Assembly (NCBI RefSeq): GCF_000151315.2 | Contig: NW_011887308.1 | Coordinates: 633,131 to 697,130, forward strand | Direction of reading: 5' to 3' | DNA: 64,000 bases | Source of the DNA: Capsaspora owczarzaki ATCC 30864 | Taxonomy: Eukaryota; Opisthokonta; Filasterea | Part shown: positions 7,278 through 64,000 of the stretch, one piece after another | Layout of the letters: each line of letters opens with the position of its first letter | How positions within the stretch are numbered: the stretch's first letter is position 1 | Notes under the pieces: generated by a model | Seen by the model: only the letters and a program-made list of their open reading frames with translations | The model's database searches: none | Told to the model about the DNA's origin: nothing | Position numbers and translations under genes: made by a program

Positions 7278-10227
<2,950 letters not shown>

Positions 10228-10356
10228 AGAAGCTGTAAAGAGGGCTTCATTTTGTCAAAAAAAAAAAATACACAAAGTCTTTCTGGATTGATGTTGATAC
10301 AGTATTTGCCTCTCAAAAGCACACTGCAATGTCAAGCGGAAGATCACTTGAAATCG

Positions 10357-12992: not shown

Positions 12993-14064
12993 TTTTTGTT
13001 TTCTTGTGGTTGTTGTGGTTGTTCAGAAAAAAAAAATGACGAAATCCGGACTGCGCGGTTACGAAATGGTGGTAAGCTTGAAAAGCGACAGGGCTGCTTC
13101 TTTCGAGGGGGAGGCGGGGAAGCGAGTGGTTGGGACGAAGGCAGGGTCAACTCTGAGCTCTGTGTGTGGTGTGGCTCAGACGCTGTGTTCTTGGCGCCGC
13201 TTCTTCGTTGCAGTAGTCAGCAGGGTTGTCGAAATAGACACAAGACTGAGCTTTGTTGCTTGTTTTGGGCGAGGGCTATTTGAATGCAATTTGGTGTCTG
13301 ACGCAATGTTTGAAAAATCAAACACCGAAACTGATGATGTCATTTTGTGTTGTTGTCGTTTCCAGCAGCTTCTATTTCGTGGTCGGATCTGAGCTGGCAA
13401 CTCGGCAGCGATGAGCACTCAGTGTGGGTTTGATTGTGTGTTTTTGTGGCACGGCAGAGAAGGGGGTGGGGTGGGGCGCGGAGGATGGCGATGCGGGGAT
13501 GAATGCGTTTGTTTTAGCGCAAATCGAGTTCGCTGCCGATTGACGTGTTGTCGGCGACTGCGCAGACCGAGTGCGTGTCATGTCTTGCTTTTGCTCTGTC
13601 TTTAGGTGTGCATTCAGCGCCCAAAGCGAGCCATCTGCCACGGGGATATGACGAGATGCAGGTGAGGTGACGGGTGAAGTTTTTTTTTTTTTCGTTGTTC
13701 GTTTATTTTGCCTTTTTGGCCCTTCGATCGCCATCCTACCCCCAATAATCTTCGCAGGTGCCCTCGCAGCTCACTCAAGCGCAGTGATGACTTGCTCTGG
13801 TTTTCGTTGCCGTTCATTTTGAGCGTTGAGTTGTTGTTTGCAACATTTCTATCGATTTGTTGAGTTTTTTTTTTGCTTTCGTCCATTGTGGATTGCCAAG
13901 ACAACCCTCGTTACCCGCGTATTGACAACACATGCTCGTGCACTGCTTCTGCTTTTATTGGATGACTATTCCGAATTTCATTTCACCCTTTCATCCTTCT
14001 GACTTCCAAATGCAGAGCTTGAGCTCAAACTCTCAGTCTTTATCTTTTCTTCCCTCTTGTGACG
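12993..14064. other. Intergenic, no gene seen
   Basis: About 1.07 kb between the divergent unknown gene (-) and cathepsin B (+). Minus-strand open frames at 13372-13734 and 13614-13904 show no recognisable domain and read like spacer sequence. Poly-T runs lie near 13681 and 13866. Confidence 0.4.
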
Positions 14065-19567: not shown

Positions 19568-22500
19568 ATGGGGTCGACGACAGCAGAGGCGCTGGGCCGG
19601 ATGCTGCAGGACCTGCACGGCACCCTCGAGCAGACCGGCCCAACGAGTGCGCAAGACGCCAAAACCATCGCGAGCGACCTGGCCAGCATGTGTCTCGGCA
19701 CCCTGTCTGAGGTTGATCTCTGTATGTGAAACGCGCGCAAAACGAGTGGATTGCAAAAAAACTCCTGACGACGATCAAGCTCTGCAAGAACCCGGTTGTG
19801 CACCAAGTACAAAGTCACACGTCGATTCGATAAACTGGACGACGACGGTTTGTTAGGGGGGGGGGGCGGCGACGCATGGGGATTTGAGCGAGAAGTCCAG
19901 GGGGAAAACGAACGAATGGCGTTCTGCAGATGAGCGGCCGAGACACGCTTTTGTGCCGGGTCGCCGTGGGGCTTGGCCGAGCTGCCATCACAAGCCAGAG
20001 ATGTGCTGCTGCACGGTCATGCACATGCACCTTCTTCCCTCCTTGCTGCTGCTCGTCCCGTTTTCGAGTTCAGCGCACTTGATGACTGCGCCATTTGTTT
20101 TTCTTGCCAATTTTTTTTTTTTCGTTTGTTTTCGCGCCAAAACCTCTGTCGTTCTCGTCGCTTGCCTCTTTTGCCTGCCTCTTCGCTTGCCTCTGGTTGT
20201 CGCGATGGATCCATTGACGACTGTTGTTGACCAACATCTTGCCGCTTGTTGTTTGGCGGATTCCAGCTCTCTGCATTTCCAAAATCTTCAGCAAGACGGA
20301 CGGCATCCTCAAGTATCTGCGCGACTGCAAGTTTGACGAGTACGAGTCGGCCAAGGAGGAGCTGTTCCGCTTTCTGGGTGCGTTTGTCAAGCGGCACGGC
20401 CGACGTTTATTGCCGCATGCGGTGGAAATTAAGGTTGGGAACCAAAGCACTGTGCCAAATTGTGATGGAATTGTGCAGCACTCGGCTCACACTTCAAAAC
20501 TGAAACACTTGCGTTGGTCTTGCGTTGGTCCCGGTCTGTCCCAAACCACTCCTTTTGTTTTTGGGAGGTAGAATGTGGCAATGAGTCTCTTCAGTCGCGA
20601 CAAACGGAGTAGAGTGAAGAACGCCTCGTTCAAGCCTCTGCGACACGTGCTGGAACTCAACCTGCGAAGCGAATTTGGCGACCAGCTCAACGTACCAGCA
20701 ATGATTGACAAGTATTGGAAATCCCTCTTTGAAAAGCACCAACCGACGGTGCAGTCCAACCTGTTCCAGCTCAACGGGCTGTTTGCCCAATTCTTTCCGC
20801 TGGAAATGGCCGCCAACACTGCTCGCCTCCTGACGATTCTCCTCAGCGCGTTGCAGCAAAACATGACGGACAGCAAAAAGCCAGACACCCAGCTTATTGT
20901 TGGCAGTCTGAAAGGGATTGCCAGTCTTCTGGTGAACTTCCCTCAGCCAAGTTCTGGTGGCTCGGCTCACGCCGTGTCGATCTACAGGTTTGTGCGCATG
21001 GCCATCCAGCCATTGCAGTCTTACACTCGATACGACATTCCGAAAGGTATGACCCAGATTGCCAAGTCTTTTTTTTTTTTTTTTTTGTTTGCTGCGCTGG
21101 ACATTTCCAGGACTGGCTGGCGTGACAGACCCTTTTGAATGCTGAACCACTTTTTTTTGATGATTCTGCTCGCAGCTGGTCTCCGTCTCATTTCAATGCA
21201 TGCAATGCAGTTCAAGGAGTTTCTTGCCGACGATTACACTGTCGTGCATAATCATGTGAGCGCGTGGTGCCAGCATAAAAACCCAAAAGTCCGGACCGCC
21301 AGCTTTGCGGCCTTTGAAGCTGTTCTGCAGGCCATCGCCGCCGTGATTGTGCGCCGTGACGGAACTGGCGCAAACGATGGTGTCATGTTTCAGGTAACGC
21401 AGAGACAAATCACACCTCATCAATTTTTTTTGTTCGGAAAAACAGAAAAAAAAAACCCGGAAAAAGTACAAAATGCTCAAAAAAGCTCCAACGCACTCAC
21501 TTGCTTTGCTTGCTTCCCTTGTGTCTCTTGCGATTGTAAAATGCCAGTTTTTCGTCACGGCCTTTCGAGACATTATGAATGCCAAAGACAGCGAGCCGCG
21601 CGACTTGGCACTCGCTGTGCGTGGCTATGGGTACTTTGCGGCGCCATGCCGCATCTTTTTAAACCAGGCCGATGTCAAGTTCATGTTTGACGAAGTTGTG
21701 CAACGGAGCGAGCAACTGTACACCAATGTGACGCTGCAAGTGGTGGACGAAGCCAGTCTGTCCCTGGTACCGAGCTACATTAATGCCCTTGCCAACATTG
21801 TCATGCAGCTGGACGAGTTGGGCGATCCGCAGCTACGAGCTTTGGCGCGGTTGGCCATTTTCTTGTTTGAGGTCTTCCCTCGGGTGCACTACAAGCAGCG
21901 CGATCCTTGCTACTTTGCAATCATGCTGCTCTTCAGCTCACTCTATCCCAAGGGTGCCCTTCTCCGCACATTTTTGGCCGATGTCGGTACGTGCTTGTTT
22001 TGGTTGGCTTTGGGTGTTCTGAGAATGGGCGGGGGGGGCGGGGTTTGTTCCTGCGTTGGCCTAACGTGTCATCTCCCCCTTCCTTCCTTTCTCTGTTCCT
22101 CTGTTGAACCTCGTTGCCGCCAGTCTATCAAGGCGTACTGCGAACATGTTCGTTGCCACAGGCAGCGGATGGGAATAGCGACGAGGTGGCCGATGCAATC
22201 TCAAATGAGGAGGAAGGCTCCTATGGTCATTACCAGCTTCTCTGGACGTCCTTGTTCGATACGCGTTACCTTCGCAGCGACATTGAGCACATGCGGCCAC
22301 AGGACCGAGAGGAGCTCTACACGGCCATGTATGATGAATTCATCTCGTCCCTACTGCGCATCCTCGGTCGGCTGGACATGACGGTCTTGATGGTGCCTCC
22401 GGCGTCCTCCTCCTCCTCCTCCGCCGATGCCGGTGCCGCTGCCCTGCCGCCTGCCCGCGACCAAATTGCGCTTGGGGTCCTGGCAAAGGACTTGCACATT

Positions 22501-23093
22501 TTTGTCAACCTCGTGAGCTTTTGCAAGGCCGTGCTACCCGTCCTTCGCCCCGAGTTGTTTGAGCGTTGGGCGTTCATTTTTTCTCGTGAGCTGATTGTTC
22601 TCGCCAACTCTACTCCGCTCGTGTCGGGGTTTTACCGGCTGCTTGCCGTCACCATGTCGCTCTGCGAGTCACTTGGCTATTTCAACGACATTGATCCCGG
22701 TGTGGTGGATGCCCTTGTCCGCAATACTCGCGTCGACCCACCGGGTGCCTCGCTGGCAGCCAGCCGACAATCTGCGACACGTGCTGGTGAAAGTGACTCC
22801 GAGCTTGGCGCGGAAATTGCTGCTCTCGAGGTCGACGCTGATTTCGCCGACCGTCGGCCCTCCAAAGGCCGTCGCCATCCGGGTGGTGCCTCGAGCTCCG
22901 CTCAGCCTTCCACTCAACAGGCTCCCAAACAGCACCGTGACGACAACGACGACGCCACGGATGTGGACACGGACGAGGACGATGACGTTGTCGAAGCGAA
23001 ACCGCCCCCGAAACGGAACAAGGCCTCCCAACAACGCGCGGACGATGAGGACGCCATGAAAGTGGATGTCAAAGAGGAGAGCTCACCGGCCCA

Positions 23094-23126
<33 letters not shown>

Positions 23127-26100
23127 AGGACCCAGCCAAACAGGCGATGTTGTCATTTGCTTTGTCGTGATTCGCAAGTTTGTCAAGGAACTCTTGCTGC
23201 GCCTGCGCACGTACAAGGACGAGTTGCTCGGCGCGAGTCTCGAGTTTCTGCTCTCTTTGCCCAAGCCGTTTGTGCTGGCACACTTGCGCGACATTGTACC
23301 TGCGTTGCAGCTCGCCTTCCGACTCGGTCTGGGGTACCTGCCGCTCGCCATGAATGCCCTGGATGCGCTCGAGCAGTGGGCTTCCACCCTCCCGCGATCG
23401 TTGCTGGCAGAGCATTTGCCAGCCATTCTGCCCTTGTTCAACGAGTACCTCCTCGAGAGTGCAGACATTAATCTCGGAGACTCGGCGGACGAAGAGGTCC
23501 ACAAGGTCGTTCAACGCATGACAAAGGTAGCGCTTCGTCGATCCCGGTCCAGTCTGGCCGGGCCCAAGTTTCAAGACGACGACGCGACCTCGTCTTCTGG
23601 CATTAGTAGTGGCAAGGCGCCCGTCGTGGCTTCGGGCGAGTCGCCCCTCCAGCTCGTCCGGCGTCGCATGATTGGGTTTCTCGGGCGCATTGGCGGCAAG
23701 CGAAGCGGCGACCTCGTCCCACCCATCAACATTGCCGACCCGAAAGCTGGGTTTATTGTCTGGGATGAGGATCAGCGCCTCCATATTGATTTGCCCTTTG
23801 CAGACCTCCGCCCTCGCTTGCTCCTTGATCCCATGCTCCCGCGCATCGTCGAGCTTGCCGAGCTTTCAAGTGACCGACCCACCAAAGTGGCGGCGTGCGA
23901 GCTGCTGCACTCGATTATCATTTTCATGGTTGGCCGTGGAGCAACTGCGTCAGACTCGTTTGGCAGCGCCTCGACCGGAGCTGCCGCGGGTGGCAGTGGC
24001 CAAGGGCCGAGCCAAAAGGCAACCACACGACATGGTGCAGGCAGCGCTGCAGCGACCGCATCTTCGAGCAAAGGCGCGGTTGTCACAGACCGCGAGTCCG
24101 CCTCCATGTTCCGCTTGTACCGCAAGCTCTTTCCTGTGCTCGTTCGGCTGGCCGTGGATGTCGAGCCCGTGGCCAAGCAGCTGTTTGCACCTCTGCTTCT
24201 GGAGGTGATTCACTGGTTTTCACAGAGCGCTCGCTACGAGTCGCCCGAAACTGCAGCCCTGCTCACCGCCCTGGTGGAAAGCTTGACTGATCCCGACCAC
24301 AGCAGTGTTCGCGATATGGCTGCACTCGGCGTGTCTGAGTTTTTGGCGTGGTCCATTCGCCAGTCCACCGACAAGCAGCTGCGTCAAAATCCCGTCAATT
24401 TCCAATCGCTCCTCAAGCGTCTGTACTCTCTTGCGCTCCATCCAAGCCCGCAGCAGCGCCTCGGTGCTTCTCTGGCATTCAATGCAATCTATCGCATCTA
24501 CCGCGAGCACGCTGTGCTAGTCGACGTGTTCATTTTTGAAATTTTGGTCAACAATTTGCACAGCCTTCGTCTTGCCCACGCGGACGATCCCTCGCTTGGC
24601 ACCCAAGAGCAAGCCAAGCTGGCTGTCGAGAACATTGTGCGAATCGTAATTGGCCACAAGGACTTGCTCGTGCAAGACCGCGTTCGACGCTTGCCTCGCG
24701 GTTGGTCGCCCGCGAGCAGCAGCCAATCTACTGGCAAGAGCAGCAACAGCAGCAACAGCAGCAGCAGCAGTAGCAGTGACAGTGGCAGTCGTTCGCGTCG
24801 TTCCTCCGCCGCCAAGTCGAATGAAGATGACGCTGCTGGGACCTTGGACGGCACCAAGAGCGGCCCTGAATTTGTCGAGGTGAACTTTACGCTGGGAAGG
24901 CTCGTGTCTTGGCTGTTTGCTCAGTGCGCTAGCGCGGAAACAGAGTATCGTCACCAGTGCATGGCACTTTTGCACTCGTTTGCGCCGCTGTTGCCCGGAG
25001 TTTCTTCTTCTGCGGCGTGGATTCGCGCATGGGCTGACAAGGAGGGTGCGTCCTACGTTTTAAGCATGGTCGAACCGACGAGTGCGCCGCAGTGTCCTGT
25101 TGAAGATGCGAGCACCTTGAAGCCCGAAGCGGCCTTGGCCTGGTTTTCGAGCTTGGAAGCGACTCTGGACTGCTTGAATTGGGTGATTGGCCAAGGGTAT
25201 CTTGCACCCGAATCCTTTTTGCAGAATGCCGCCATCTTTGCCTCGCTCGGCGCCTTTGTGGACAAGTTTGCGCTGTTCGATGCTTCCACTTCCCCTCAGC
25301 TGCAAGCGCTGTCTCCTCACGAGCTGGCTCGCTACAATCGCACAAAGTGCACAGTTCTCGTGCGCGCTTTCAACTTTCTGAGCATGCTGCTGGAGCACCA
25401 TTCCGCATTTGCCGAGCAACACCTCGTCATCTGGACGCGCCCGATGCTAGAGGCAATTCTGCTTTGTGTGTTGGATCCGGCGGCTGTTGGATTCGACATG
25501 GGTGACGTGGAGGTTGTTCGAAAGCTGCCTCGCGAAACGGGCCACTTGCTGTCCCTCCTTGTCAACTTTGTCGAGAGTGCACCGTTGAAGCAGCATCGTC
25601 TTGCGTCCGTGCTACACTCGGTCGTGACTCCGATGATTTCCGACTCCTCCAAGCCAACCAGCGTCCATGTTCTGTTGAATGTGGCCACCCATTTGTCGAG
25701 TGCGGCCATTCCTGGATCGACCCCTACGTCTGCGCTTCCACACAGACCTCCAGCAACGCGTGACGCGTTGCGCCTGGGCGCTCTCATCACGGGCTACGAG
25801 CAGCTTCACGCCGTTCGCTTGTTGTCGTGTCTCGAGGGGAATGCCACCAACTCTGGCACGCTCGCGATGCAGTTCTTGGATGCGGCGGTCGCGCTCAGCG
25901 TTCGAGCCACCCAGCACGGCAGCGAGCCGCTGGAGCTTGAAAATGGCGGTCGTTTGCTCGAGCTGGCTTTTGTCCTCAATGTCCAACCCCAGCGCCTCGT
26001 CAACCTCCTTCTCGACGCTCGCATTGTCGAATCCCCGGCCCGCACTTCTCGTCCTGCGCGCGGCGAGGTGTTTTTTGCCAGCTTTGCCAGACCTATCGGC

Positions 26101-29100
26101 GACTTTTTGATTCGGAACTTTGACCTGTTTGCCGACTTGATTATGGCCAAGTGCATCTCGAGCCCAATTGCCCTGCACATTTTGCAAGCGCTGCTCGACA
26201 TGGTCTTTTCCGACAAGCGGCTCAAGTCCCGCCGTCGTCCTTTCGTCTACATGGTGGCATCCCGCTTGCAGCTGCTGCTTGGCTGGGCCTCTGCAACCTC
26301 GTCGAGTAGTGGTAGTAGTAGTAGTAGTAGTAGCAGCAGCAGCAGCGCGAGAGGCAATTCCAGCAACACGAGTGCGCGCGGAACAGCAACCACCACCACT
26401 GCAAACGGCGTGCCAGCGTCAGAGCAACGTCAAACTGTTTTGGAGCTCCTGCGCAAGTGTCTGCTGATTGATTGGCAAGCAACGTTGCACCACGACCATT
26501 TCGATGGCGTGTACAAGCTCTTTGTTGCGCTCCTGTCCAACTTGGAGGCCCCATTGCCGTTCTTTGTGGGCGTGCTCGAACTGCTGCCCCGGTTCTTGGA
26601 GACCTTGCAGCTGCAGCTGACGAACGCGGAAGCCTGGCTCTCCACGCCATCACCGTCGTCGTCGTCGTCCGTCGCGACTGCGGCCGCCCCAAGCAGTTCT
26701 CACAGTCGGGTAGCGCTGCAACGAGCAGACACGGCAATGGACACGAGTACTAGCAGTAGCGGCGCACAACCCGGTGTTTCATCCGCCAGGTCTAAGCGCC
26801 AGCAGGTGGCAGTCAACCCGGCCACGGTCCAGCATTCGGCAGAACAACGGCATGTGCAACTCGAGCAAGTGTTGCAGCTTTTGATTGGCAACAAATTCCC
26901 CGTTTTGTCGACCGAGTTTAAGCGCGGCTCGTCCAAGTTTTTGGACTACGCGACAGCCATGGAGAGCTTGCTTTCGGCGCTCTCCGCCACCGGTTCCATC
27001 CTGCTTTTGCGCGTCATGCTCCCGATGCTGTGCCGAGAGTCCGTACATGCACTCGAAGAAGCCATTCAGCGCCATTTGCGTGCCTTCATGGGTGTGCTCT
27101 CGGCCCGCTACACGGCCCCTCAGCAGCAGGCACCACATTCAAACCCCACGACCTCCTTTGTCAACTCTGTGGAGGTGGCGTTTGCGTTCGTTCTCGACGT
27201 TCTCAACGGTCGTCATCACCGTGCAGCGTTGCGCCGCGCCGCAGGTCAGCGTGTGCTCGTCACGTTTGCGCGGGCGCTCAAGGAGACGCCGCTGGTGGAT
27301 GTCCTTGCGCGACACATTCCCGCCATCTGCGAGACAATTGCATTGCCTCCGCCACGGCGCGACAGTCGAACCACCGACGACGATGTCGAGGCCGCACTGA
27401 TTCATCGCACCACGTTCTTCAACCTTGTCGAAATCATGTACCAGCGCATCCCTGCCAAGGAGCTCAAGGGCCAAGGGCGCATCAATCTCGCCTTCCTCGG
27501 CGACAAGCCCGTCGACAAGGGCAATGAGCTGACACAGGCCATCACGAAGGCTGCGCACATTGCCAAGTCGGAGGCTTCCACTGCGAACACCGCATCGACG
27601 GGGTACTCCGTTTCCAGCTCGCTGGCTGTGGGCGGAGGAGGCGCCATGAACGCTGTCGCGCAACCAACCTCGGCTCAGCAGCAGCAGGCGGGTGACCAGC
27701 AGACCGCTCTGCGAACCGCGCGACTGGCCTACCATCGCGCGGCGTACAATGCTCTGGCGTCCTTGCTGCTTGCGACCCAAAACCGACCCGAGCTGTTTGA
27801 TTACTTCTTGTTCAAGGAAAACCGCGGCAAGGGCGAGTTGCTGTGGGAGAATATCATTGACACTGAGCGGGTGTATGCCTTTGAGCCCGAGCTTGTTGTT
27901 CCCATGACTCGGCGTGATAGGCTTGCGCAAATACGCGATGCCCAGGGCACTGGCGGGCCGTCCACGGCCTCTTCCGTGCTCTTTGACGATTCAGCATCGG
28001 CGATGGCTGACACTCGCCGACGCCCAGCCTACTTGGCCTCGCAATACCTCGCCGAAAGCTCCTTCAGCGATGACCTCGGGTTGTTCCACGCGGCTGCCAA
28101 CCAGGTCGGTCGTGGAAGCGAGCCACAGCTGCAATCTGGCGAAAGTGCCGACGCAACCAACAAAGCGGCACAAGGAGGCGTCAAAACGTCTGGACCACGG
28201 GGCGCTGCTGCTGCTGCTGCTGCTGCAAGCGGCGACGCTTCTGCCAACTCGAGCGGCTCGCTTGGAGCGCCCAACTCTGCAAGTGCCGTTGATGAAGAAC
28301 TGTCCGTGGCTGTCATTGATGCTGACGGGCACGAGGTCCGCACGCAAACCTATGTTGTTAGCAACTCTGCCCTCGAGCTCGACGATTTCAACGCAAACGA
28401 GTGCATGCCCACCATTCTGCGTTTGATTGATTTCATGGATGCCAAGTTCAACCCTCTGGCCCAGCAAGGGACTGCCACCGCGGTGGCTGGTGGCGGCGCC
28501 AACACGGCGGCGGCCGCCTCGTCAGCTGTGCCCATGCAGACCGATGCATCGGATGTCGTTGAGGTGGTGCGGCTGGCCGACGCAATGCCGTCATGGATGA
28601 GTGAAATCCACCGCAAGTTTGAGCAGCTGGACACGCCACTGAACGTCAAGATGTTTATTGCCAAAATTCTCGTCAATCGGCAAGACCTCTTCCGTCCTTA
28701 CGGCCTCTTTTGGATGCGCAGTCTACTGCAACTGATCACGGCCGGCCCTGGCGGTTCGGGCATTCATTATTACCTCGTGGACTTGTGCGTGCTCTTGTTG
28801 TCGTGGGCGCCGTACGTCATCCCTGCCGACGACTTTGAGGACAAGCGCCTCGCGTCTCGTGTCCTGGAGCACCTGATGAAGCACGCATGGCATCCAACAC
28901 GTGCTGTTTTGCGCAACAATTTGGAAATCATCAAGGCGGTCGTCGAGTGCTGGCGGCAGCGCGTTCAGATTCCCTACCGCGTCATTTTCGAGAGCTTCAA
29001 GGACCGCAATCCCGACACGACCATGAATTCGACTGGCATTCAGCTGTTGGCTGTGCTGATGGCCAACCAGCTGCCGTCCTTTGTTGAGAGCCAAGCAAGT

Positions 29101-32100
29101 GGAGTGGACGCGCGCGAGTTTTACGACGCCCTATCGCAAAACCTCCTTGCCCGTCGGCGAGAGGTCTATTCAGCGGCCGCAGAAACGATCGGAATGGCTC
29201 TGTCCGAGCAACACGCAGTGAATCGGGCTGGAGGCAGCAGCAGCAAGAGTCGGCAACACCGCGAAAGTCCGTTGCAACAGCTCGCTCTCGATCGGCTCCA
29301 CCAGCTCGCCCAGCACGCTAGTGGGGCTGCGGCAGGCGCCGTGGCGGCTTCACGCAGCTCGAGCAGCAATCCGACAGACAAGTTTTTGATTTGTCTGCAT
29401 CGCATGGGCAAGTACTTCCCCGAGATGTGCGACCACTTTTTCACCATTCTCATCTTTATGCTCCCGAGCTTGCATGGGCAGTTTAAGGAAATGACGCTCG
29501 AAATGATTTCCTGGCGCGCCACTCAGACGCCAGCCTTGTTCCAAAATCTGCGCGCCAAAGACCTGCTTGGTCTGTTGACGCATCGCGAAGAAGGTGCACA
29601 GCTGTTCACGCTCCAAACGCTCAAAGCGCTCCTGCACTCGCTCACGACGGAAGAGATTGAGTACTTTATGCCAACAGTGATCCAGACCTTCAGCAAACAC
29701 GACAGTCTGGAATGCCGGCAAGTCATGTACGACATGCTCATCTCGCTGTTCGATCAGGGAAGTGCAGACCTACGCGAGTTGGTGCAGCCGCCGCTCGTGC
29801 AGGGCCTCGCCGATGAGAGCGAAGCCATTCGCGTGCTGCTTCAGGGCTTTTGGCACAATCCCAATCGCTTGTCGCACAACACGTTGCAGCGGCTCCGGGG
29901 CATTTTCGATTTCATGTACACTCCAGAGGCGGAGGCACGGTTCATCAACAATGGCGCGAATCTGATGCTTGAGCTGGCTCGCCTTGCCCGTGACTACGAC
30001 GAGCCCCTCTTTGATCTGCCACTTGCCGAGTGTCCGTTCGAGGAGTATCCGATCGACGCGGCATGGCATCGACGCCACATTCCGATGAGCATGGCGTATG
30101 GCATGACGCAATTTGCTTCCCAGCTCCAGCAGTCGCAGCAAAGCGGAAGCGATGGAGATGCGCGCCCAGTGGGCTTTTTGCGCGCTACCCAGCAGTCCCT
30201 GCTGTTCACGCCAACAATGTCGAATGTGATTGGGTCTCTTGCCAGCTCGAGCCTTGGCCCGATGTCGAGCTATCAGTCGCAACCCGGCTTTTCGTTTGGC
30301 TACGGCGGCTCGTTTGGCGCTTTCGGAGACGCAGGCGGCCAGTCCCAAAACATGGATGAAGCGTCGGCGGCGCGTCGCTTGATGGCCTTGCAAGATGAGG
30401 AAGGGTCCAAACGCTCGTCCCTGCTGATCAAGCCAAAGCCACTGGGCGTGAACTTTGGTGCCGCAAGAAGCGCAGGAGCCTCCTCCTCTTCCTCCTCCTC
30501 CTCCCAATCCACCCGCACCGGCAGCAGTCATTCCGGGAGCGTCTCGACTGCTGTTGCGCGTCGCGAGGTTCTTCGGCTCAAACGTCGCTTTATCAAGGAT
30601 TCGGCGGAAGCAGGCTCGCAGTACCACATGATGCAGGCCGTCAAACGGCGCTCGCACATGATGGATTTGCAACGGCGCCAAAAGATTGCGCGTGCCAACA
30701 AGGTTGCCCTGTACCGACGCTACAAGTTTGGCGAACTCCCCGACATTCAAATCAAACGCCGCGAGCTCATCCAGCCGCTGCAGGCCCTGGCACAGAAGGA
30801 TTCGGTCATTGCCCGCGCCGTTTTCGCTCAGCTCTTCAATGGCGTGTTGCACGAGAGCCAGTTCAAGATTGACTCCAAAGACCTGGACGCGGCCGTTCTG
30901 GCCCTGAGGCGACGCCTTGGAAACATGCTGAAGGACTCGCGCTACTTTGTTGCGCCGTTTGTGGCTTGCCTCGAGGACATTTCGTTCCACGACTCGCGAC
31001 TGGAGCTGAAAGCCACCGTCGTCAGCACGGCATCCCTCAACTCGTCCAACTGGCACAACGGCGTGGCCCTGCTCGAGAAGCAGATTTTGGCCGGCCAATC
31101 CGCAGAGGTGGTGCAGCCGTCAAAGCGCGCACGCCTTCTTGCAGCAAACCCAATCCCTCAGGGCCTGGACTGGCTCGAGCTGACCAAGCTGTATCGGGCC
31201 ATGGAAGAGCGGGACACCATCATGGGAATTCACGCGACGCAACTCTGTGCGAACAATAAGGAAACCCTTGACGCGATTCAGGCCGAGGCCGAAGGAGATT
31301 ATGCCAAGGCTGGAGACCTCTATGAGGATTTGATCAAGGAGAGCATTGGTAACGAGGGGAGCCCCACGTCGGAAGAGCAACTCGATGTGTGGGAAATGGC
31401 TCGCTTTGAGTGCTACTCGAAACTGTCTCGATGGAACACAATCCGCGACATTATTGACGGCTCCTTGTACGACGCGCACGATGACAGAATTCATTACGAG
31501 CAGCTTTGGGACCCTGGCATGTCAAAGGATGTGCGTCTTCCATTGTTCATGCGCGCCTGGCTGCAACAGCAGCCCTCCTCCACGTCTGCCGCCCAAGATG
31601 TTGCCGAGGACGCTGCCCAAAACCCGCTGTTTGAATTTGTGTCGCAAACGTTCGCCATCGGCAGCCCCCAGCAACGCTTGTTGCTCGAGTCTCGCTTTTC
31701 GTACGAGCTCTCGCTCGTGGCTGTCCTGCGAAACGACTTTGAGCGTGCCAAGTACCACCTCGCCCATTGCTACACCAACTTTGTGCAAGACTGGTCGTCA
31801 CTGCACCCGCTTTTGCACCAAGCAAGAAAGGCTCGCGTGGGCGAGGTGCAGGCCACGGTGGAGTTGGACGAGTTCCTGCAGCTCGTCACCTCCCCCAGCA
31901 AGGTTTCTTCGTTGAGCACCGTGCGCAAGCAAATGCTAGCGTGGCGCGGCCGTCTTCCCAGCAAGACACTCCAGTCGATGGAAGTTTGGGATGGCGTGGT
32001 CAATAGCCGTCGCATTTTCTTGCGAAAGCTTGCCGACCAGTTTGTCGCAAGCCGCACCAAGTTGAGCGCGCGCGGAGACGGCGGTCCGGCCACGTTGTCA

Positions 32101-35100
32101 CTCACCGCAGCCAATGACGACGTTGCTCCCATGCTGATCGATGCTGATAGTGACGCTGCGAGCGGGGTTGCAACGCTTTCGGACGACGCCAAGTTTCGGC
32201 GCCAGGCGGTTCTCGTCCGGCTGGTCGTCGCGGAAGAGCAAGTTCACTTGGCCTTGGCCATGGGAAAGGCAGCCATCAAGCAAAACAACCATGCCGTTGC
32301 CAAGGATTGCAAGGAGCACGCGTATGCTCTGCTGAAGCAAGCTCGCGAAACAGATGTCGGCAAACGACACGCCAAGCTGAACGAGCATCTGCTTGTGATG
32401 TGGTATCACTATGCGCTCCGCATGGCCTATCAATGTCCGCCAGCCGAGCAAGCAACCAAAATCAAAGAGCTGCTCAGTGGGTTGACGAATTGGGCTTCGT
32501 TCTGTGGCAAGGTGCAGCACGATCCGTTGCTTGCACAGCGGCACCAGTTGTTCCGATTCGAGCTGCTCCATGCATTGTCGTCCAATGCCACCAATCTCGC
32601 AACTGTACTCGGTTCGTCCGAGTTCACCGCCAGCTTGGCAAAAGCGCTGCAAATTCGCTCTGTCAGCGGCGTGAGTGTCGACCCCGTCGCGAGTGCACCC
32701 AAGTTGTCCAGCACCGATTCCACCAAGGATGCCATTCGCAGTGCCGCGTTTGACGCGCTGACTGCTGCGATTGGGCTGGCGACAAGCGCTGACGAATCAT
32801 CGACTCGTCCTGCAAAGCCCCATGCGTCGGCCGCCCCCATTGGTCGCGCTGCTGTGACGGACGCGATGGCTCTTGCCTCGTCTGCGATTGTGTCGAATGC
32901 GCGAATGGCGAAAGCTCGCGTCAAGCTTGCGGCCTTCTGTGAAGAGCAGATTGAGGAAGTGGTGCAGCTACACGAGCAGCAGCAGCAGCAGCAACAACAA
33001 CAACAGCAGCAGCAGCGTTCCAAGCCCCGTGCTCTGGGCCAAGCGGACGCGCCTGCCTTGCCATCATCGATGCGACATTTGCCCAAGCTCATTGTGGAGA
33101 ATGTTCTCAAGGCCATGGCCCTGGGCTCACCCGATGCTCGCGACAGCTTCCCACGGTTGCTCCAGTTGCTCGCCCAGTTTGGTTCGTCGTCCCCTGAGCT
33201 TGGGAATCTGTTCAAGGATCTGTCCGAGAAAGTGCCTTCTTGGATGTTTATTCGTTGGATTGCCCAGATTGTCGCCGTGCTCGACAAACCGGAGGGTCTC
33301 AGTCTTTCGCGCATCCTCAAAAACCTTTGCCTCAACTACCCTCAAGCGATTGTCTACCCGTTCTTTTTGAGCTGCGAGCAATTCTCATTTGCTCCGACGC
33401 GCGATGGAGAAAAGTGCAGAATCAACGTCAACGGCGCCAAGCGACTCCTCGGCCAGCCACTCACCATCACGTTTGCGAGAGAGCTGGAGCAGTTTTTGCA
33501 CCCGGATCTGGCGCTGAAAGATTGGGTTGAGAGCGAGCTGAAGGCCTTCATCGACCAGCCTCCATCCAGCCGCGCCGAGCAGCTGCCGGCGCTCGAGGCC
33601 AAGTATCAGGCGCTCAGAACCGAGCTTTTGGATGACAAGAACAGCGCGCTGGGCAGCTATCGTCGCGCTTTTGCCGTCCAGTTGCAAGCGGCAGTGGACG
33701 AACTCGTCGACGTCATTCAGAGTGCCGCTGGGTCGAGCAAGGCCGGTTCAGCAGCGTCCAAGTCCCTGACTACACTGCTTGATGAGCGCTGGAAGCAAAT
33801 TCGCGAGCAGATGGAGAAGCACATGACGGCCAACCCGGCGCCGACCAGCCTCAAAGCGTACTCGCCATGGCTTGCTCGGTATTCTGGTACGATTGGCATG
33901 ATGCAGGCAAATGGTGCGGACGGACATGCGCTGGCCGGCCTTGAAATCCCGGGCCAGTACACTGGCCTGTCGGAACCGTTGCTCGAGTATCACGTCAAGA
34001 TTGCCGGCTTTGACGATCGCGTCGAGACGCTGCAGTCCATCCGCAAACCCAAGGCCATCATCATTCGTGGCACCGACGAGAAAGAGTACAAATTCCTGGT
34101 GAAGGGCGGCGAAGACTTGCGCCTGGATCAGCGTGTTCTCCAGCTGTTTGATTTGATGAATCAGATCTTTGCCAAGGAGTCGACAACGGCGCAGCGCCAA
34201 CTTTCCTTGCGTACCTACCAGGTGGTTCCGACAAGCATGCGTGCCGGCATTCTGGAATGGATGACCAACACTCGCACGCTCAAATCATTGCTGGAAGGCT
34301 CGTTGACGCCAGACGAGAAGATGGCGCTGTCGCGACCGACCACGATGGGCGCGCAGTACCAGCAGTGGATGACGAGCAAGGTGGCCAAGGCAGACGCTGG
34401 TCACCTTGCTTTAATGTATGGCAGCATGTTCCAAAATGTCACGCGCAGCGAAGTGGAGTCGTTCTTTGGCAACTTTGAGCGGCAGGTGCCAGGCGACCTG
34501 CTCAAGCGATCCGTGCTTCGACTGTGTTCGTCGCACGAGGCGTTCATTACCGTTCGTTCGGGCTATGCGCGCAGTGTCGCCACACTGAACGTATGCCAGT
34601 ACGTGCTGGGCATTGGCGACCGGCACTTGTCCAACTTGATGCTCGACATGACCACTGGACGGGTGGTGGCCATCGATTTTGGCCATGCATTTGGCTCTGC
34701 GACGCAGTTTTTGCCCATCCCGGAGCTGATGCCGATGCGCTTGACGCGCCAAATGGTCAACTTTTTGCAACCGCTCACCGTTGATGGCTTGGTCAAGCAA
34801 AACATGGTCCACACGATGCGAGCGCTGCACCGGCACCAACAAATGCTCCTCGCCTCGATGGAAGTGTTTATCAAGGAGCCTCTTTTGGATTGGAAGCTGA
34901 ACGCCAACAAGCAACGCAAAATGCAGCAGCAGACCGTTGCCGCTCTCAAGCAAGCGGATGGCCGCAGCGGCGGTGCTGCGATTTCAAGTGGTGGTGCTTC
35001 TTCCTTGGATCGCGGAGGGCGGGACGCTAGCTCTCGGAGCACCGGCCAGCAGCAGCGAGGGGCCTCCGGGTCAAGCTCGAGTCGCGGCTCCGCGCTCCCA

Positions 35101-35448
35101 TCTTCCGTCGAAAACGCGATCGCCAACGTACCTGGCTGGGATGCCTATGCCGACGGCGATGCCAACGAAGAATGGTATCCTCGGCAAAAGATTGAACTCG
35201 CCCGCCACAAGCTCAACCTCTGGAACCCCGCGTATGTCATGCGCGATGAGCTCACTCTGGGTCACGCCAGCAAAAAGTGGTTTAGCTCGGTGCTCAACAT
35301 TGTTATGGGTGACCCCGATCGCGATTTTCGCGCCAAGAATCCCGAAAGGTGCGAGAGCATCGAGGCTCAAGTGGATTGCTTGATTGAGCAAGCCCGCGAC
35401 CCCAACATTCTGGGCCGAACCTGGGCTGGCTGGGAGTCGTGGATGTGA
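19568..35448 (+). CDS. PRKDC: DNA-dependent protein kinase catalytic subunit (PIKK)
   Basis: A nuclear Ser/Thr kinase of the PI3K-related family that binds Ku-loaded DNA ends in non-homologous end joining. Exons are 19568-19721, 20267-20433, 20572-21046, 21176-21393, 21548-21986 and 22124-35448. They join in phase to about 4925 residues, against about 4128 in human. N-terminal marks are HAVEIK, AGLRLISMHAMQF and RGYGYFAAPC. The middle has SSDRPTKVAACELLHS, FKRLYSLALHP-like LKRLYSLALHP and YGLFWMRSLLQL. The FAT region holds DIQIKRRELIQPLQALAQ. The kinase domain starts near residue 4460, with LVKGGEDLRLDQR, GIGDRHLSNLMLD and IDFGHAFGSATQFLP. The C-terminal FATC ends DPNILGRTWAGWESWM, close to the animal DNA-PKcs end. 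Extra length comes from Ser, Gln and Ala-rich inserts. The first exon (51 codons) and the 545-bp first intron are the least certain parts. Confidence 0.96.
22124..35448 (+). other. Single 13,325-bp coding exon of DNA-PKcs
   Basis: One uninterrupted frame from an acceptor (CCGCCAG at 22117-22123) to the stop at 35446-35448, encoding about 4441 codons. The first 484 codons of the same gene are split by five introns in 2.5 kb. Family-matching blocks recur along the whole exon, so it is a real reading frame. Confidence 0.95.
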
Positions 35449-40586: not shown

Positions 40587-43079
40587 TCATGCAGCAAAGT
40601 CCATAATGTCTGCAGGAATATCATTCATGTTGCCAGAACCCATGAGGAAGGTGGCAGCAAGTTCATCAGGCAGGGAGGAGCCAACGTTGGGATCTGAAAC
40701 ATGAGATTGTGATGAGCGCCCATGTTTGCTTGTTTGTCTTCTCCAACCTGTCATACAAACACACACAAGCGACAGCCTTACCGTGCAAACCACCATGTGG
40801 ATTGAAAAAGGTGTTGTGTGCAGATGAATCGTTCGCGAGCAAACGCGCGCCACCGTTGAGCACAAGCCCGGGTGATGGCGCGAACGAATCCACATAGCCC
40901 GAGTGCATTGGGTCTGACATGAAGCAATCACATCGATGCGGTTAGACGCAAAAAAAAGGAAGAAAAAAAAAGGAATAAAAAAAAACCAAAAAAAAAATAC
41001 ATCATCTCACGCGCTTCAAACCATACCATCTTGCATGAGACTTTGAATGAATTCATCCGAGGTGGCAAACGACGAATCCATGTGATCGTTGAGAAAATCA
41101 GACCCGTGGTCCAGCTGTTGTTGAGTGGGGTGCGAAAACGGCGCCTGGTGGCGTTGATGTAGCTGCTGTTGCTGAAGCTGCTGCTGCAGGTGCATCTGCT
41201 GTTGGAACTTGGTTTGCACCTGTGCCATCGTCTGAGCGTTACCCATGTAGACACCGTTCAAGTGGTGATGACTGCCACTCCCATTGGCGGTGGTCATCGG
41301 CGGGATGTAGGCTTGGCTCGGGTCCGCAACGACAGAGGCCAGCGTTTGGTCGATTTCCGCTTGGAGGTTGTGGTCCTCCTCGGGAACGCCAAACTCGACA
41401 GATTTAGAACGCAGCATCAGGGGCGACCGCGCGCTGCTGGAAATCGGCGTGGTGCTGACAGCGGTGCCAAGCGCCGACGCAGAGCGGCCGCGCGGCGAGG
41501 ACAGGTTGCTCGCAAACGCACCACCCATGACACCGAGAGGCATGGGCAACGAGCCAACACTGAACTGAGCCATCGAGGGGATGGCGTTGAGGCTTTCCGA
41601 GCTGCCAGTCAGGCTGGTCAGAGACTCGGTGGAGCGATGATGTGCGAGCTGATTTTGCAGCTGGTGCGGGAAAATGCCCAAGGCCTGCTTGAGACGCTCT
41701 GCCAGCTGGGCCTTGCTGCCAGAGTAGGACAGGCCGAGGGCTCGCAGTTCGCTCTTGAGCTCGACAACCTTGAGTTCATCGACCCGCGCAGAATCGAGCA
41801 AGGCTCGGCCCTCGATGCTGTCAAACCCAGGCGCAGGGGTGCTGCCACTGCTGCCCGACCCGACACTGCCGACGGACATGTCCATGTTGGACGGGCTCTG
41901 TTGCTGCGATTGAGGGTGCTGCTGTAGCTGCTGTGCTAGAGCGTCAATCGATGGCGATGCGCCGGTTTGGAGGAGCGACAGGGGGTCTTGTTGCGAGCTT
42001 GGGTAACGCGGTGATATTGGCGGTTGCTGAGCCTGTAGACCCAGCTGGGATGGCTGAGGCATGCGCGTGAGCGATTCGTGCTGCTGAAGCGCAAGCAGGT
42101 ACTCTTGTTGTTTTTGCAGCAGGTGGTTGTACTGCGCGCCGGGCTGCGTGCTACTGCCAGAGTTTACAGTCACCGTATCTTCTGGGGCGGAGGGCGCCGT
42201 CAAGAAGCGCGGGCCGACGCGATTGCCAACGGGTGGTTGGTATTCGTGGTACCTGAATTTGAGTTTGCGCTCCTTGGGAGGCTTGATGGGTGAGCTGGGA
42301 GTGTTTGAGCCTCGTCGACTGGATGCAGCCGAGGACGGTGCGGACATGGAGCTCCCCACTGCCGCCGGTGCAGCAAACGGAGCCACCGTAGCAGCAGCAC
42401 CAACAGGAGGATGAAGAGGAGGAGCGGCAGCAGCGAGATTCTGTTCAAGGAACTGTTGCTGCTGTTGCTGCTGTTGCTGCTGCTGCTGGCGGAATTGCAA
42501 CAGTATTTGCTGTTGCTGCAGTGCTTGTTGCTGCTGCAGTGACTGCTGCTGTTGTTGGTGCTGCTGTTGCTGCTGAAGCGCTAGAAAGTCAAATGGTTGC
42601 GGGTCGACCGTCATAATGTTGTCCTCGAGGAGGTCCATTGCGCCCGGGCGGTTGATGATGCGGTCGTTGAGGAATGCCGTGACCTGAGCTCGCCGCAGCG
42701 ACTCTTGTGAGGCCTGGAGCGCGGGCGAGGCACTCGAGTCTGGCAGAATGTGATGCTCGACAAGCTCCTGCTTCCGTGGGCGCGACTTCATCTTGCGAGC
42801 AAGCGTCTGCTCGACCTGCGCCCGCACAAGCGCGTCGTGCTGGGCATGCAGCGCAGGAGCCACTGTCGTCGGGTAGCTCCGCAGAATGCCCTGGTCCACC
42901 AGCGAGTCGCGGTCTGGCCGCTGCCGAATCTTGCGCTCGAGCGCCTCCATCGACCGCCGCTTGTCTTCCCGCGACGTCGTCGCCGTAATCACCGCACCCA
43001 CGTCCAGCTCGTCGTCGTGCTGGTAGTGGTGCTGCTGCAGTCCCTCCGAAGCAGAGACAGCGTCGTAGCCAGACGACAT
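40587..43079 (-). CDS. Myocardin/MRTF-like protein: RPEL repeats and SAP domain
   Basis: In animals MRTFs sense G-actin through RPEL motifs and switch on SRF target genes. Exons on the minus strand are 43079-41027, 40913-40782 and 40693-40587, and join in phase to 763 residues. Near the N-terminus there are three RPEL-type repeats, around RQRPDRDSLVDQGIL, KSRPRKQELVEHHIL and INRPGAMDLLEDNIM. A long poly-Gln region follows, then a basic block KLKFRYHEYQPP that resembles the conserved KLKYHQYIPP block of MRTFs. A SAP domain is near residues 430-465 (VVELKSELRALGLSYSGSKA). The C-terminus is acidic and hydrophobic (SDEFIQSLMQD and SLPDELAATFLM), fit for an activation domain. No leucine zipper stands out. 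Target and SRF partnership are inferred from the family. Confidence 0.88.
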
Positions 43080-59520: not shown

Positions 59521-60909
59521 ATGACGCGCTCAGCTGACAACGCACCGGCTGCCCTGAAGCAACTGAAGCAACGCACTGCTGCGGCTTCGGCTGCAGGTGG
59601 CTCGATTCCGTCGTCCCCCACGCCGGACTCTGCTGCCTCCTCTGCTGCTGCTTCGGCCAACGCTGCCGACGCTGCGCCCATCCGCTTGGACAAGCAGGGC
59701 GCTGCGTTGCTCTCGTTCGACAAGGGCCTGCTGTCCACCGCAGACCTGCCCGAGGTGGCCGTGAACAAGGACCTCGTGCCGGACTTTGGCCCACAGCTGG
59801 CGCACGTCAAGGAACAGCGCTTCCTCGCAGACGACCGCATTGCCGCGCGCACCCTCGCCGTGACAGTCGCGGCCTGGCTTGGATGGACGCTGCTCGCCCC
59901 GCTCAGCTTTGCCGGATACAACGCGGCGGCAGTCCAGGGAAACGCAACTGCACCTCCGTCGGCGTCGGCCGTCGAAGCCGGCCTTGCGAACGGCTACCCC
60001 GTGCTCTACTTTGCCCTCGGGTTTGTCTGGCTGTTTGTGGCTGCTGGACTCAAAATCCGCTCCTTTATGATTCTGCACGACTGCGGACACGGCTCGTTCT
60101 GGGCGACCCGCGAGTGGAACGACAAGACGGGCAAGCTGCTGCAGATGCTCGCGTACACCCCTTTTGCCCTCTGGCGCTACGGCCACAACCGCCACCACCT
60201 CGTTCAGGGCAACCTCGACGTGCTTGACGAGGCGGCCACGATTGCACACACTACCGACGACTGGCGCAAGCTGGCGCTCTGGAAGCGCGTCCTCATTCGC
60301 GGCATGCGCGACCCCATCGTCTTTATGCTCGTCCTCCTGCCCTTGTATGTGTGGTTTGTGCACCTGCCGTTCCACCGTCGCAGCTCGTGGCCCGCGCGTC
60401 TTTGCTTCCTGATCCAGGCGACCACGCTGTACGCGGCCTTCGCCGTCCGTGGCGTCCCGCAGCCCTTCCTCTACGCCGTGACTCTCGAGTTTTTCACTGC
60501 TTGGCTGGCTGGCATCACTGGCATCTTCCTCTTCCATCTCCAGCACTCGGTCAACACGGGCTACCGCGCTCCCGCCGAAAAGTTCTCCCCGCACGCCGCC
60601 GCCATCCACGGCTCGACCATGCTCCGCGTCCCGGCCTTCCTCAAGTGGCTCACCCTCGGCATCCAGTACCACCACATCCACCACCTGTCCACTCGCGTTC
60701 CGTGCTATCGTCTCGCAGCCTGCCACGAGGTTGGTCAGGAGCGCGGACTCTGGTCTGAGGTGAACGTTGTCGACGGACCCAAGGCCGCCACCTCCTTCTT
60801 TAACGTCTTCTGGGACGAGCCAACGCACCAGTTTGTGACCTTCTGGCCCTATCAGATTGTTGGTCAAAACCTCGGAGAGCCGAACATGGCCTACGCCTCT
60901 GTTTTTTAA
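59521..60909 (+). CDS. Membrane fatty acid desaturase, intronless
   Basis: A 462-residue di-iron acyl desaturase in one exon from ATG 59521 to TAA 60907-60909. The first about 100 residues are Ala and Ser-rich. Hydrophobic spans alternate with three His boxes: HDCGHGSFW (near residue 185), HNRHH (near 222) and HHIHH within QYHHIHHLSTRVPCY (near 385). The HDCGH form and the HxxHH third box place it with delta-12/omega-3 type front enzymes rather than with delta-9 or cytochrome b5-fused enzymes. No b5 domain is present. Position of desaturation cannot be read from sequence. It is one of the few genes here without introns, and is strongly codon-biased toward C- and G-ending codons. Confidence 0.9.
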   Translation: MTRSADNAPAALKQLKQRTAAASAAGGSIPSSPTPDSAASSAAASANAADAAPIRLDKQGAALLSFDKGLLSTADLPEVAVNKDLVPDFGPQLAHVKEQRFLADDRIAARTLAVTVAAWLGWTLLAPLSFAGYNAAAVQGNATAPPSASAVEAGLANGYPVLYFALGFVWLFVAAGLKIRSFMILHDCGHGSFWATREWNDKTGKLLQMLAYTPFALWRYGHNRHHLVQGNLDVLDEAATIAHTTDDWRKLALWKRVLIRGMRDPIVFMLVLLPLYVWFVHLPFHRRSSWPARLCFLIQATTLYAAFAVRGVPQPFLYAVTLEFFTAWLAGITGIFLFHLQHSVNTGYRAPAEKFSPHAAAIHGSTMLRVPAFLKWLTLGIQYHHIHHLSTRVPCYRLAACHEVGQERGLWSEVNVVDGPKAATSFFNVFWDEPTHQFVTFWPYQIVGQNLGEPNMAYASVF

Positions 60910-61358: not shown

Positions 61359-64000
61359 TCATCCTCTTCGGACTCGGCCGCCAGTCCTCGGCATCAATCG
61401 TGGCGCAATGCTCATGGACATGAGTTCTTGGAAGAGCAGCTTGGCTGCATATGGCAAGAAGATTTGCGAAATCTGTTGTGGGCAAAAAAAGGGGGGGGGA
61501 GAGGGGAAATCGACACGCACACGAGGATGAGAAATTCAAACTGAGCAAAGAGCGACAAAACCAGCATCAACACGAAACGACGCTTTTTTTACCTGTGTCT
61601 TGTTGCGACAAGCGCGACATTCAAACTCATTCTTCTTCAGATTAGCAATCGCAATAAGACCGCAAATGTCGCAGACGTGGACGCGCGAAAAGTCAGACTG
61701 CTCAAACAGACGCTCGCGGAGGAATTGGGCGGCACCGTGGGCAATCATGCAATTGTGGACGGCGACGCCGTTGGCGATAAAGTTGTGCGCGCCGGGCACG
61801 CTGATGTCGAAGGTGAGGTGGCTGCCCGCGGGCTTGGAGCCCATGAAGGTCGCGCTCCAAGTGGGGAAGCCGTCGAGGCGGTGAGCGACCGCGGACACGA
61901 CAGAGCTTTGATCGAGCGTGGACTCGGTAAAGAAGGCGGCGGCGTCGTGCTGCTGCAGCCAGAGCCGTGGCACGACCTTCGTCACCTCAGACACGCCCTT
62001 GAGCGCATCCTTGACGGCCTGGTAGCTCGGCACGGCGTGCTCGCGGCGAATAAAGATCTCGGCGGCCTCGAACTCTTGCACAGTCTGAGCGTAGGCAGCC
62101 TGCAGCGTCATGAGGAGGCGCTTGCGCTTGCCGCCCGCAGGGACAGACGCAGCGGTGTAGCCCGTCAGCGCATCCACGCGAGCGATAAACTGGCGACGCT
62201 GCTCCTGCGAATACGCGCACGCGCGGTAGAAGGAGGCGGCGACCGAGGAGCGCTGCTGCTTGTGGCAGCACAGACGGAAGCCAACTCGCTCCTGGAACGC
62301 GACCAACTGCTCAACGGGCAACATCAGGCGGCCGGAGAGCACCGTGGCACCAGCTTCGGGGTGCTTGTTGGTGACGTCCACAAGAGTCTCCTGCGTCGCG
62401 CCGTTGATGCCAAAGCGCGCAAGCAGAGCAGCGATCTGGTCGAAGGTCGCGCGCAGCGAGGCCGCGTGCGCCTCGACCTTGCTCATCGCAAAGCCCACCG
62501 AATGCCAGCCGTGCGCCATGGGCTGTGGCGCCAGGCCGTCGCCGCCAAAGAGGCCGCCCAGGAACTCGCGTACCACCGACAGCGGACACGAGTCGGCCAG
62601 GATGAAGGCAGGCAGCGAGTCGGCCTGCAGCACACGCTTGCCAGGCTGTATGTGCAGCACTTGGTGGCAATCGCGCAGCAGGTCCGACGGCAGCCAGACT
62701 GAAAAGAGCTTGGAGGTGGCGTTCGGAGCCTCGACCTGACACTTGAGTCCGGTGGCCTGCAGCACATCGGCCACAGCGCGCTCGGCGTCGATGCGGTGGC
62801 CAAGCGCCAGGCAGCCGTCATAAAAGTCATTGGCGGCGCTGTAGCTCATGGAGCCAAGGTTTGTGAAAAAGTAGCCGAGCACGCGAGCGAAAGCATGAGT
62901 GCGTGCAACCTCCTGCGCGTCACCCATGCGCAGCGTCGCACCAACGCGTGGCAGGTGCAGCGCGAAAGCGGAGACGGCCGCCGCGTCATCGGCGCTCGCC
63001 GAATATTCGGGCGCGCACAGCCCGACCGTGACGCGGGTTTCTCCGGGCACCAGCGCGCGAGCGTGAACCCATTCGCCGTCGGCCGTCAGAACAAGATGCT
63101 CGGGTGTGCACACAAGGTCGCGTCCGTCGCTAAACACGAGACGGATGCAGTCCTTCAGCTTGGGGCGAGGCAGGTGCGCGGACGGGGCGATGGGGACCAG
63201 CGTGAGGTTGTCGCCACGCGCCAGCACCTCGGGCAGGTGCACAAGGTCGCGGATGCGCATGGACACGCCAGTGGCGAGGGTCACGCGTGCGTCGCCGTGA
63301 AGACAATCACGCTCCATCTCACCGAAACGCAGACCGCCGTCACGCGCACGACCCTCGACGGGCTGGCGAGTCAGGTTGGTGAGCGGACCGCGCTGACGCG
63401 AGTGAATCTTGTCGTCGACCATGTGCTTGAGGCGCTGGTAGTAGGTCGGGCCAAAGTACACTTGCGTGTTCATCTTCTTGCCAGTGTGGCCGTTGAAGAG
63501 CACCTCGTTGCCGTAAGGGTGGTAGCGGAACTCTTTGAGGAGATCGGCAATGCTCTTGACCGTCACGTCAGTGTTGAACGGGGTGGCGTCACCAATTTTG
63601 CCGGTGAGCGCAGCAACCTTGCCCTGCAGACACTCAATCAAGTGACCGATGGTCATACGCGATGGAATGGCGTGCGGGTTGATGATAATGTCGGGCGTGA
63701 TGCCCTCCGCGTTGTACGGCATGTCCTCTTGACGGTAGGTGATGCCGCAGGTACCCTTCTGACCGTGGCGCGAGGCAAACTTGTCGCCAATCTGCGGAAT
63801 ACGAATGCCACGGACGCGGACCTTGACGAAGCGGTGACCGTCCTCGTTCACCGACAGCATGACCGTGTCGACAATGCCGTTTTCGGTCGAACGAAGGGCG
63901 GTGGAGGCGTCGCGCTTGCGGTAGCGCTTCATGGTCTGCGCCAGCTCGTTCTTTTCATCGGGGATGGGAGTGGTCTTGCCAATGATAAAGTCATCGCCAC
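61359..64000 (-). CDS. POLR2B: RNA polymerase II second-largest subunit RPB2, 3' part, with intein
   Basis: The beta-like core subunit of RNA polymerase II, nuclear. Only the C-terminal part is in the window; the frame runs past the right edge. Minus-strand exons are 64000-61593 and 61472-61359, joined at [10 protein letters not shown] by an intron with a GTAAAA donor. Family marks are the switch and hybrid-binding segment [69 protein letters not shown] and, after the intein, [15 protein letters not shown]. The zinc-binding clamp follows ([13 protein letters not shown]), then [20 protein letters not shown]. The host protein is interrupted in frame by a 518-residue intein between MERD and CMIAHG, so it must be protein-spliced to function. 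[19 protein letters not shown] and the KTQIS junction favour Pol II over Pol I or III. Confidence 0.96.
61752..63305 (-). mobile_element. Intein in RPB2 with LAGLIDADG endonuclease region
   Basis: A self-splicing protein insert of 518 residues, in frame with RPB2. It begins with Cys1 ([13 protein letters not shown], block A) at 63305-63303. Block B follows as [20 protein letters not shown]. The end is block [23 protein letters not shown], with the penultimate His and last Asn at 61754-61752. The next residue is Cys of the host. The splicing residues all look intact. Between lies a DOD-type homing endonuclease region: one motif reads [13 protein letters not shown] and keeps its acidic residue; the other, [10 protein letters not shown], lacks the usual Asp. 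The host site is the invariant GEMERD|C of RPB2. Codon use matches the host gene, so the intein is not a recent arrival by that measure. Confidence 0.93.

Follow-up and report, generated by a model that had tools for sequence, protein, structure and literature searches.

What is the 518-codon insert that interrupts the conserved core of RPB2 in Capsaspora owczarzaki, and how might it have reached a relative of animals? We analysed a stretch of 64,000 nucleotides from strain ATCC 30864 (assembly GCF_000151315.2, contig NW_011887308.1, positions 633,131 to 697,130; hereafter the window), at one end of which the RPB2 gene lies on the minus strand. Motifs, profiles, alignment and a predicted fold identify the insert as an intein. 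With high confidence, we read it as an intein with Cys1, a His-Asn end and a +1 Cys in the only RPB2 gene found, placed at what is by deduction the RPB2-a site and with the life history proposed below.

An open insert in the only RPB2 gene found

The RPB2 reading frame, 1656 residues long with the insert, follows the solved RNA polymerase II (Pol II) RPB2 chains through the last residue of GEMERD, which aligns with residue 1136 of yeast Rpb2. It then continues without a stop for 1554 nucleotides, closes with Val-His-Asn and resumes as CMIAHG, of which the Cys is the +1 residue. The Cys1 codon occupies 63305-63303 and the Asn518 codon 61754-61752. The parts of the gene in the window are as follows.

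63306 to 64000, minus strand: last part of the RPB2 N-extein in the window, running past the window end
61752 to 63305, minus strand: intein, 518 codons, Cys1 to Asn518
61593 to 61751, minus strand: first piece of the RPB2 C-extein, starting with the +1 Cys
61473 to 61592, minus strand: 120-nucleotide spliceosomal intron in the C-extein (GT...AG), predicted from splice signals and the RPB2 family sequence
61359 to 61472, minus strand: last RPB2 exon through the stop codon, predicted in the same way

The best Pol II chains, presumably mammalian, match the gene with 1584 bits, and the yeast chain 1i3q_B with 1420. RPB2 was found at one place in the 27.46-Mb assembly; two further matches, 50% and 45% identical, are taken to be the RPC2 and RPA2 genes. 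The insert itself is present as a single copy in the genome.

In 2000 base shuffles of the insert, in-frame stops averaged 11.2 and never fell below 3, so its open frame is more than chance. Its codon usage follows that of the RPB2 N-extein: r is 0.88 for this frame, against 0.32-0.76 for the five others. Could the insert nevertheless be a spliceosomal intron, open in frame by accident and removed from the mRNA? The genome does use such introns, including one that follows the insert after 159 coding bases, and introns that are open by chance occur in G+C-rich DNA. However, within 60 bases of the ends, no GT-AG, GC-AG or AT-AC intron would remove exactly the insert and restore RPB2, and all 54 in-frame, non-exact removals change its conserved core. 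As the insert moreover encodes Hint and LAGLIDADG domains with the catalytic splicing residues, an intron is almost certainly the wrong explanation.

Motifs, profiles and predicted fold

The residues used in protein splicing are all present: Cys1, the block B motif T67-P-E-H70, D500 and H507 of block F, H517, N518 and the +1 Cys. The sequence-only reading had described a 518-residue intein that leaves the family sequence at GEMERD, ends in VHN and resumes with Cys, and had named block A Cys1, block B TxxH, the penultimate His, the terminal Asn and the +1 Cys. Its coordinates and residues hold, now matched to solved RPB2 chains, and the strand is the minus strand. The domains are arranged as follows.

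63006 to 63305, minus strand: N-terminal portion of the splicing (Hint) domain, roughly residues 1-100, with Cys1 of block A and TPEH (67-70) of block B
62283 to 62918, minus strand: two-fold LAGLIDADG endonuclease domain, about residues 130-341, from predicted secondary structure and fold matches
62850 to 62879, minus strand: LAGLIDADG motif 1, residues 143-152, with the usual catalytic Asp replaced by Asn149 and with Leu150 added
62529 to 62561, minus strand: LAGLIDADG motif 2, residues 249-259, with Asp256 kept
61947 to 62246, minus strand: extra predicted helical region of low confidence, about residues 354-453, parts of which are kept in both viral inteins at the same site
61752 to 61910, minus strand: C-terminal portion of the Hint domain, roughly residues 466-518, with blocks F and G and the His517-Asn518 end

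Comparison with other inteins supports the identification. The intein_Cterm profile scores above its cut-off, and intein_Nterm (TIGR01445) does so in the genome search with 27.8 against 24.5. A single-sequence AlphaFold model was unusable (predicted local distance difference test score, pLDDT, of 36). With a 64-row alignment of the window intein and 63 viral inteins, the model reached a pLDDT of 68 and shows a Hint fold with a LAGLIDADG endonuclease. The endonuclease is modelled as two-fold, with I-DmoI and intein endonucleases among its best structure matches; searched alone against solved structures, the endonuclease region returned nothing relevant. The inteins of solved structure (the TliVMA intein, PI-PfuI and PI-SceI) are 13-18% identical to the window intein and come from other hosts and sites.

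Several points weigh against this identification. Two profile scores lie slightly under their cut-offs, namely Pfam PF14890 (E 5e-8; 33.3 against a gathering cut-off of 35.8) and, in the first search, intein_Nterm (24.0). Pfam LAGLIDADG_3 is also below, with 18.8 against 22.5. Splicing itself is inferred from the sequence. Furthermore, the assembly may be a collapsed diploid with a possible intein-free allele: by the authors' reasoning in PMC9170242, Capsaspora may be diploid. Finally, not every published Capsaspora sequence is found in the assembly. Three of five queries match, namely a coWts sequence at 100 of 100 bases (PMC10959527) and two GAPDH primers (PMC9170242) oriented towards one another within a GAPDH gene, and we take the host to be almost certainly Capsaspora owczarzaki or a strain very close to it. 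The other two, a coYki 90-mer and a coYki primer, have no match, perhaps because coYki falls in a gap of the assembly or because the strain is a different one.

These missing matches, and the reliance on one assembly, are also what could be said for an assembly artefact or contamination. We consider this highly improbable, since both borders join the host RPB2 precisely, the codon usage is host-like and the single copy lies within a 780,791-base contig.

The insertion site is probably the known RPB2-a site

The residue that follows the insert corresponds to residue 1137 of yeast Rpb2, which we take to be the sole Cys of the anchor domain; a literature search for the limits of that domain gave none. 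According to Goodwin et al. 2006 (PMC1635734), the Chlamydomonas RPB2-a intein lies in the anchor domain, before a Cys, and 32 alignment columns after the RPB2-b site. In Capsaspora RPB2, GEMERD/C is 32 residues past KIH/S, counted by eye. A giant-virus-like RPB2 gene (L004, IMG/VR 3300044986_001148, minus strand) has an intein at KVH/S, the counterpart of KIH/S, and an empty GEMERDC site. Because the anchor domain, the +1 Cys and the spacing to RPB2-b agree, the Capsaspora insert, by deduction, probably occupies the RPB2-a site.

Compared by description only, the Chlamydomonas reinhardtii intein (Cre RPB2) is, like that of Capsaspora, a nuclear RPB2 intein with Cys1, a following Cys and a LAGLIDADG endonuclease. 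It differs in having 431 residues and a Gly-Asn end, against 518 residues and His-Asn (PMC1635734). The same source groups it with threonyl-tRNA synthetase (ThrRS) inteins. It also describes inteins of this host protein or a homologue of it that sit at other sites: RPB2-b in Coelomomyces and Spiromyces, RPB2-c in Batrachochytrium and RPC2 in Dictyostelium. The RPB2 inteins of Salmacisia and Tilletiales (PMC10849329) and the RNA polymerase inteins of Bodo saltans virus (PMC5871332) are likewise lodged in this protein or a homologue, the likeness being one of host protein.

In the literature searched, we found no report of an intein from Capsaspora or Filasterea; supplements and most subscription papers were outside that search, so an earlier notice is possible. 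The consulted portion of Green et al. 2018 (PMC5784728) lists nuclear RNA polymerase inteins, 21 in number and none of them under Filasterea, as well as Prp8 inteins for Choanoflagellida. What is new is thus the Capsaspora intein, at a site that was probably already known.

Inteins at the same site in giant-virus-like RPB2 genes

Of the 17 loci in IMG/VR that matched the GEMERDC codons, 13 are RPB2 genes, some of them near-duplicates. The insert is in frame at a conserved site and is absent from most homologues: eleven of the 13 viral genes are empty there, and two are occupied exactly at this position. The two inteins, L224:7410-8951 with 514 residues and L235:11454-13007 with 518, align to the window intein over its full length with 170.7 and 215.6 bits. 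We compared 77 further viral inteins, 4 of them from other RPB2 sites and 73 from a gathered set, and the next best reaches 28.8 bits. Identity to the window intein is 28.5-28.8% for L224 and 30.2-30.3% for L235, and the three fall together at 99/98 in an 80-row tree of splicing domains, with the bootstrap not settled. Both viral inteins share the GEMERD/C site and a similar length with that of Capsaspora; they differ in keeping both LAGLIDADG aspartates, motif 1 reading ITDG in each.

Each of the two RPB2 genes is one open frame on an A+T-rich contig, and the genes around them include a uracil-DNA glycosylase and helicase-like genes. No viral hallmark gene besides RPB2 was identified on the two contigs, which we call giant-virus-like. 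The top entries for the intein in a viral structure library are giant-virus ThrRS, RNA polymerases and ribonucleotide reductase; the ThrRS entry agrees with the Chlamydomonas-ThrRS grouping of Goodwin et al.

The L224 gene holds two inteins. The L235 gene (IMG/VR 3300010885_043880, 6423-13259) holds three in one RPB2: RPO-a-like at GDKYA/C, RPB2-b-like at KQH/C, and RPB2-a. The RPO-a-like and RPB2-b-like inteins are kin despite their different sites, and the inteins at the RPB2-b and RPO-a sites of these viral genes form a lineage separate from the RPB2-a inteins.

Other searches came back empty or nearly so. The intein alone, used as a query against viral contigs, found no relative. In phages, tblastn returned 12 records with matches to the Hint ends only (best E 0.02), in plasmids it gave no match, and a PHROGs search had no match below E 0.26. 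Junction patterns for inteins at this site returned 3 viral loci and 38 genome loci, none of them RPB2 or RpoB, and a pattern with Leu or Phe after the Cys gave two loci, both without an intein here. As the looser GEMERDC pattern did find both viral inteins, the earlier patterns must have been too strict, and the empty junction scan of prokaryotes is weak evidence. Scanning viral contigs with an alignment of the three inteins recovered the same two contigs and three loci that match residues 43-121 only.

The endonuclease has lost one catalytic acid

At the motif 1 position, 48 aligned viral inteins have Asp in 37, Glu in 5, Asn in 4 and another residue in 2; the window intein has Asn149 followed by the extra Leu150. 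At the motif 2 position, Asp is found in 43 of 52 aligned viral inteins and is kept as D256. The window intein therefore lacks a catalytic acid in one of the two motifs in which an active enzyme should have one. Double-strand cutting by LAGLIDADG enzymes normally requires both acids, and with the first catalytic Asp gone, homing by the Capsaspora intein is probably dead while splicing would be kept.

Has the decay gone further, leaving a dead intein that no longer splices, in a non-functional RPB2 gene or in a product that retains the insert? The lost Asp indicates that decay has begun, and degenerate endonucleases are described in other nuclear RNA polymerase inteins (PMC1635734). Against this, the splicing residues are all intact in an open frame, and the insert sits in the conserved core of the only RPB2 copy found, all of which makes a dead intein very improbable.

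An equally close intein in a prokaryotic aconitase gene

A profile built from the three inteins was run on samples of two prokaryotic phyla. In the phylum of a Bathyarchaeota record, 18 of 398 genomes matched, one of them strongly (277.5 bits; the next reached 50.8). In that of a Streptomyces record, 38 of 396 matched, with 54.7 bits at best. Another prokaryote set gave no match in 7 genomes. The strong match (genome G345, L241:1387-2955) is an intein of 523 residues that interrupts an aconitase-like gene between GYGCTT and CIGNSG. It shares lineage and architecture with the window intein, differs in host gene and site, and reads DDG in motif 1 and ADG in motif 2. Its identity to the window intein is 29.3% over 491 aligned residues.

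For the idea of viral exchange, this intein is an unfavourable finding: it is as similar to the window intein as the viral ones are (29.3 against 28.8 and 30.2%). We therefore dropped the idea that the nearest kin are viral only. The branching order of the four, which is not settled, also weighs against viral exchange. With the aconitase intein added, one tree pairs it with the window intein at 99/84; a smaller tree leaves the pairing open (76/77), and a grouping of the window intein with the two viral ones is not rejected (p-AU, the approximately unbiased test, 0.22). Because the composition of these rows is unlike the rest, we trust neither pairing. The case for exchange between viruses and cells rests on the shared site, not on the tree.

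Proposed mechanism and history

Judging from its open, host-like frame, the insert would be transcribed and translated as part of RPB2. By the established chemistry of intein splicing, the Hint domain would form a thioester at Cys1, aided by the TxxH of block B. The N-extein would then shift to the +1 Cys to give a branched intermediate, and cyclisation of Asn518, aided by His517, would release the intein and ligate the exteins as MERD-CMIAHG. With the site in the conserved core, and with a search that turned up no second RPB2 copy, splicing should be efficient for Pol II to work. The insert may formerly have spread by homing through its LAGLIDADG domain, and may persist because only its exact deletion would be tolerated.

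The intein would belong to a lineage of about 515-523 residues whose other members occupy this very position in giant-virus-like RPB2 genes and a prokaryotic aconitase gene elsewhere. That viral and cellular RPB2 genes exchanged it at some time is suggested by the common site. The extein identity to Capsaspora RPB2 is 41.1% for L224 and 46.8% for L235 (42.6% and 42.8% for two other viral RPB2 genes), so Capsaspora and the viruses resemble each other less in the intein than in the exteins, and any transfer between virus and cell would be old. Between the two viruses, the inteins (47.6% identical) are more alike than the exteins (38.9%), which suggests that the intein moved among viruses. Around the site, 24 of the 30 central bases are common to Capsaspora and one viral gene, and 20 of 30 to Capsaspora and the other.

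If RPB2-a inteins homed directly between giant-virus RPB2 and the nuclear RPB2 of protist hosts, through near-identical DNA at the site, they could have reached an animal relative and perhaps green algae. The Capsaspora copy would then be a stranded or domesticated remnant that kept splicing and lost homing. We put this forward tentatively, as a history that falls somewhat short of an even chance.

Alternatively, the intein may have descended vertically or moved anciently from eukaryote to eukaryote with no giant-virus step, the viral copies having been taken from eukaryotic hosts. The lower identity of the inteins than of the exteins gives no sign of recent transfer and fits this history, as does the host-like codon usage. 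The very patchy distribution does not, and neither does the sign of movement among viruses; the viral structure library, too, points to a kind of intein at home in giant viruses. This remains a serious contender, to which we also give a little less than even odds.

Other genes in the window

A fatty acid desaturase gene (59521-60906, plus strand) is convergent with the 3' end of RPB2. Further away, 22114-35445 on the plus strand is a single open frame of 4444 residues that encodes a DNA-PKcs-like kinase, complete with every Pfam DNA-PKcs domain, the kinase domain and FATC. On the minus strand, 41019-43079 encodes a protein with RPEL repeats and a SAP domain, presumably like a regulator of the MRTF/myocardin type.

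Implications for intein spread

Nuclear inteins are few, and how distant eukaryotes exchange them is an open question. The sequence-only reading had stressed this rarity and the bearing of an intein near animals on how inteins spread. That significance is lessened by the site, which by deduction is the known RPB2-a, and by the Prp8 intein listed for Choanoflagellida in PMC5784728; it is raised by the homologues at the same site in giant-virus-like genes. The interest of the Capsaspora intein lies in its animal-related host, its disabled homing enzyme and these homologues.

Taken together, an animal relative and giant-virus-like genes carry homologous inteins at one site of a protein that is among the most conserved in life, and by deduction a green alga uses that site too, which makes giant viruses a concrete candidate vector. 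Both intact-looking and disabled endonucleases are available for this one site. As Capsaspora can be transfected and edited (PMC9170242), splicing of the precursor, its speed and its effect on Pol II supply would be testable in a living relative of animals.
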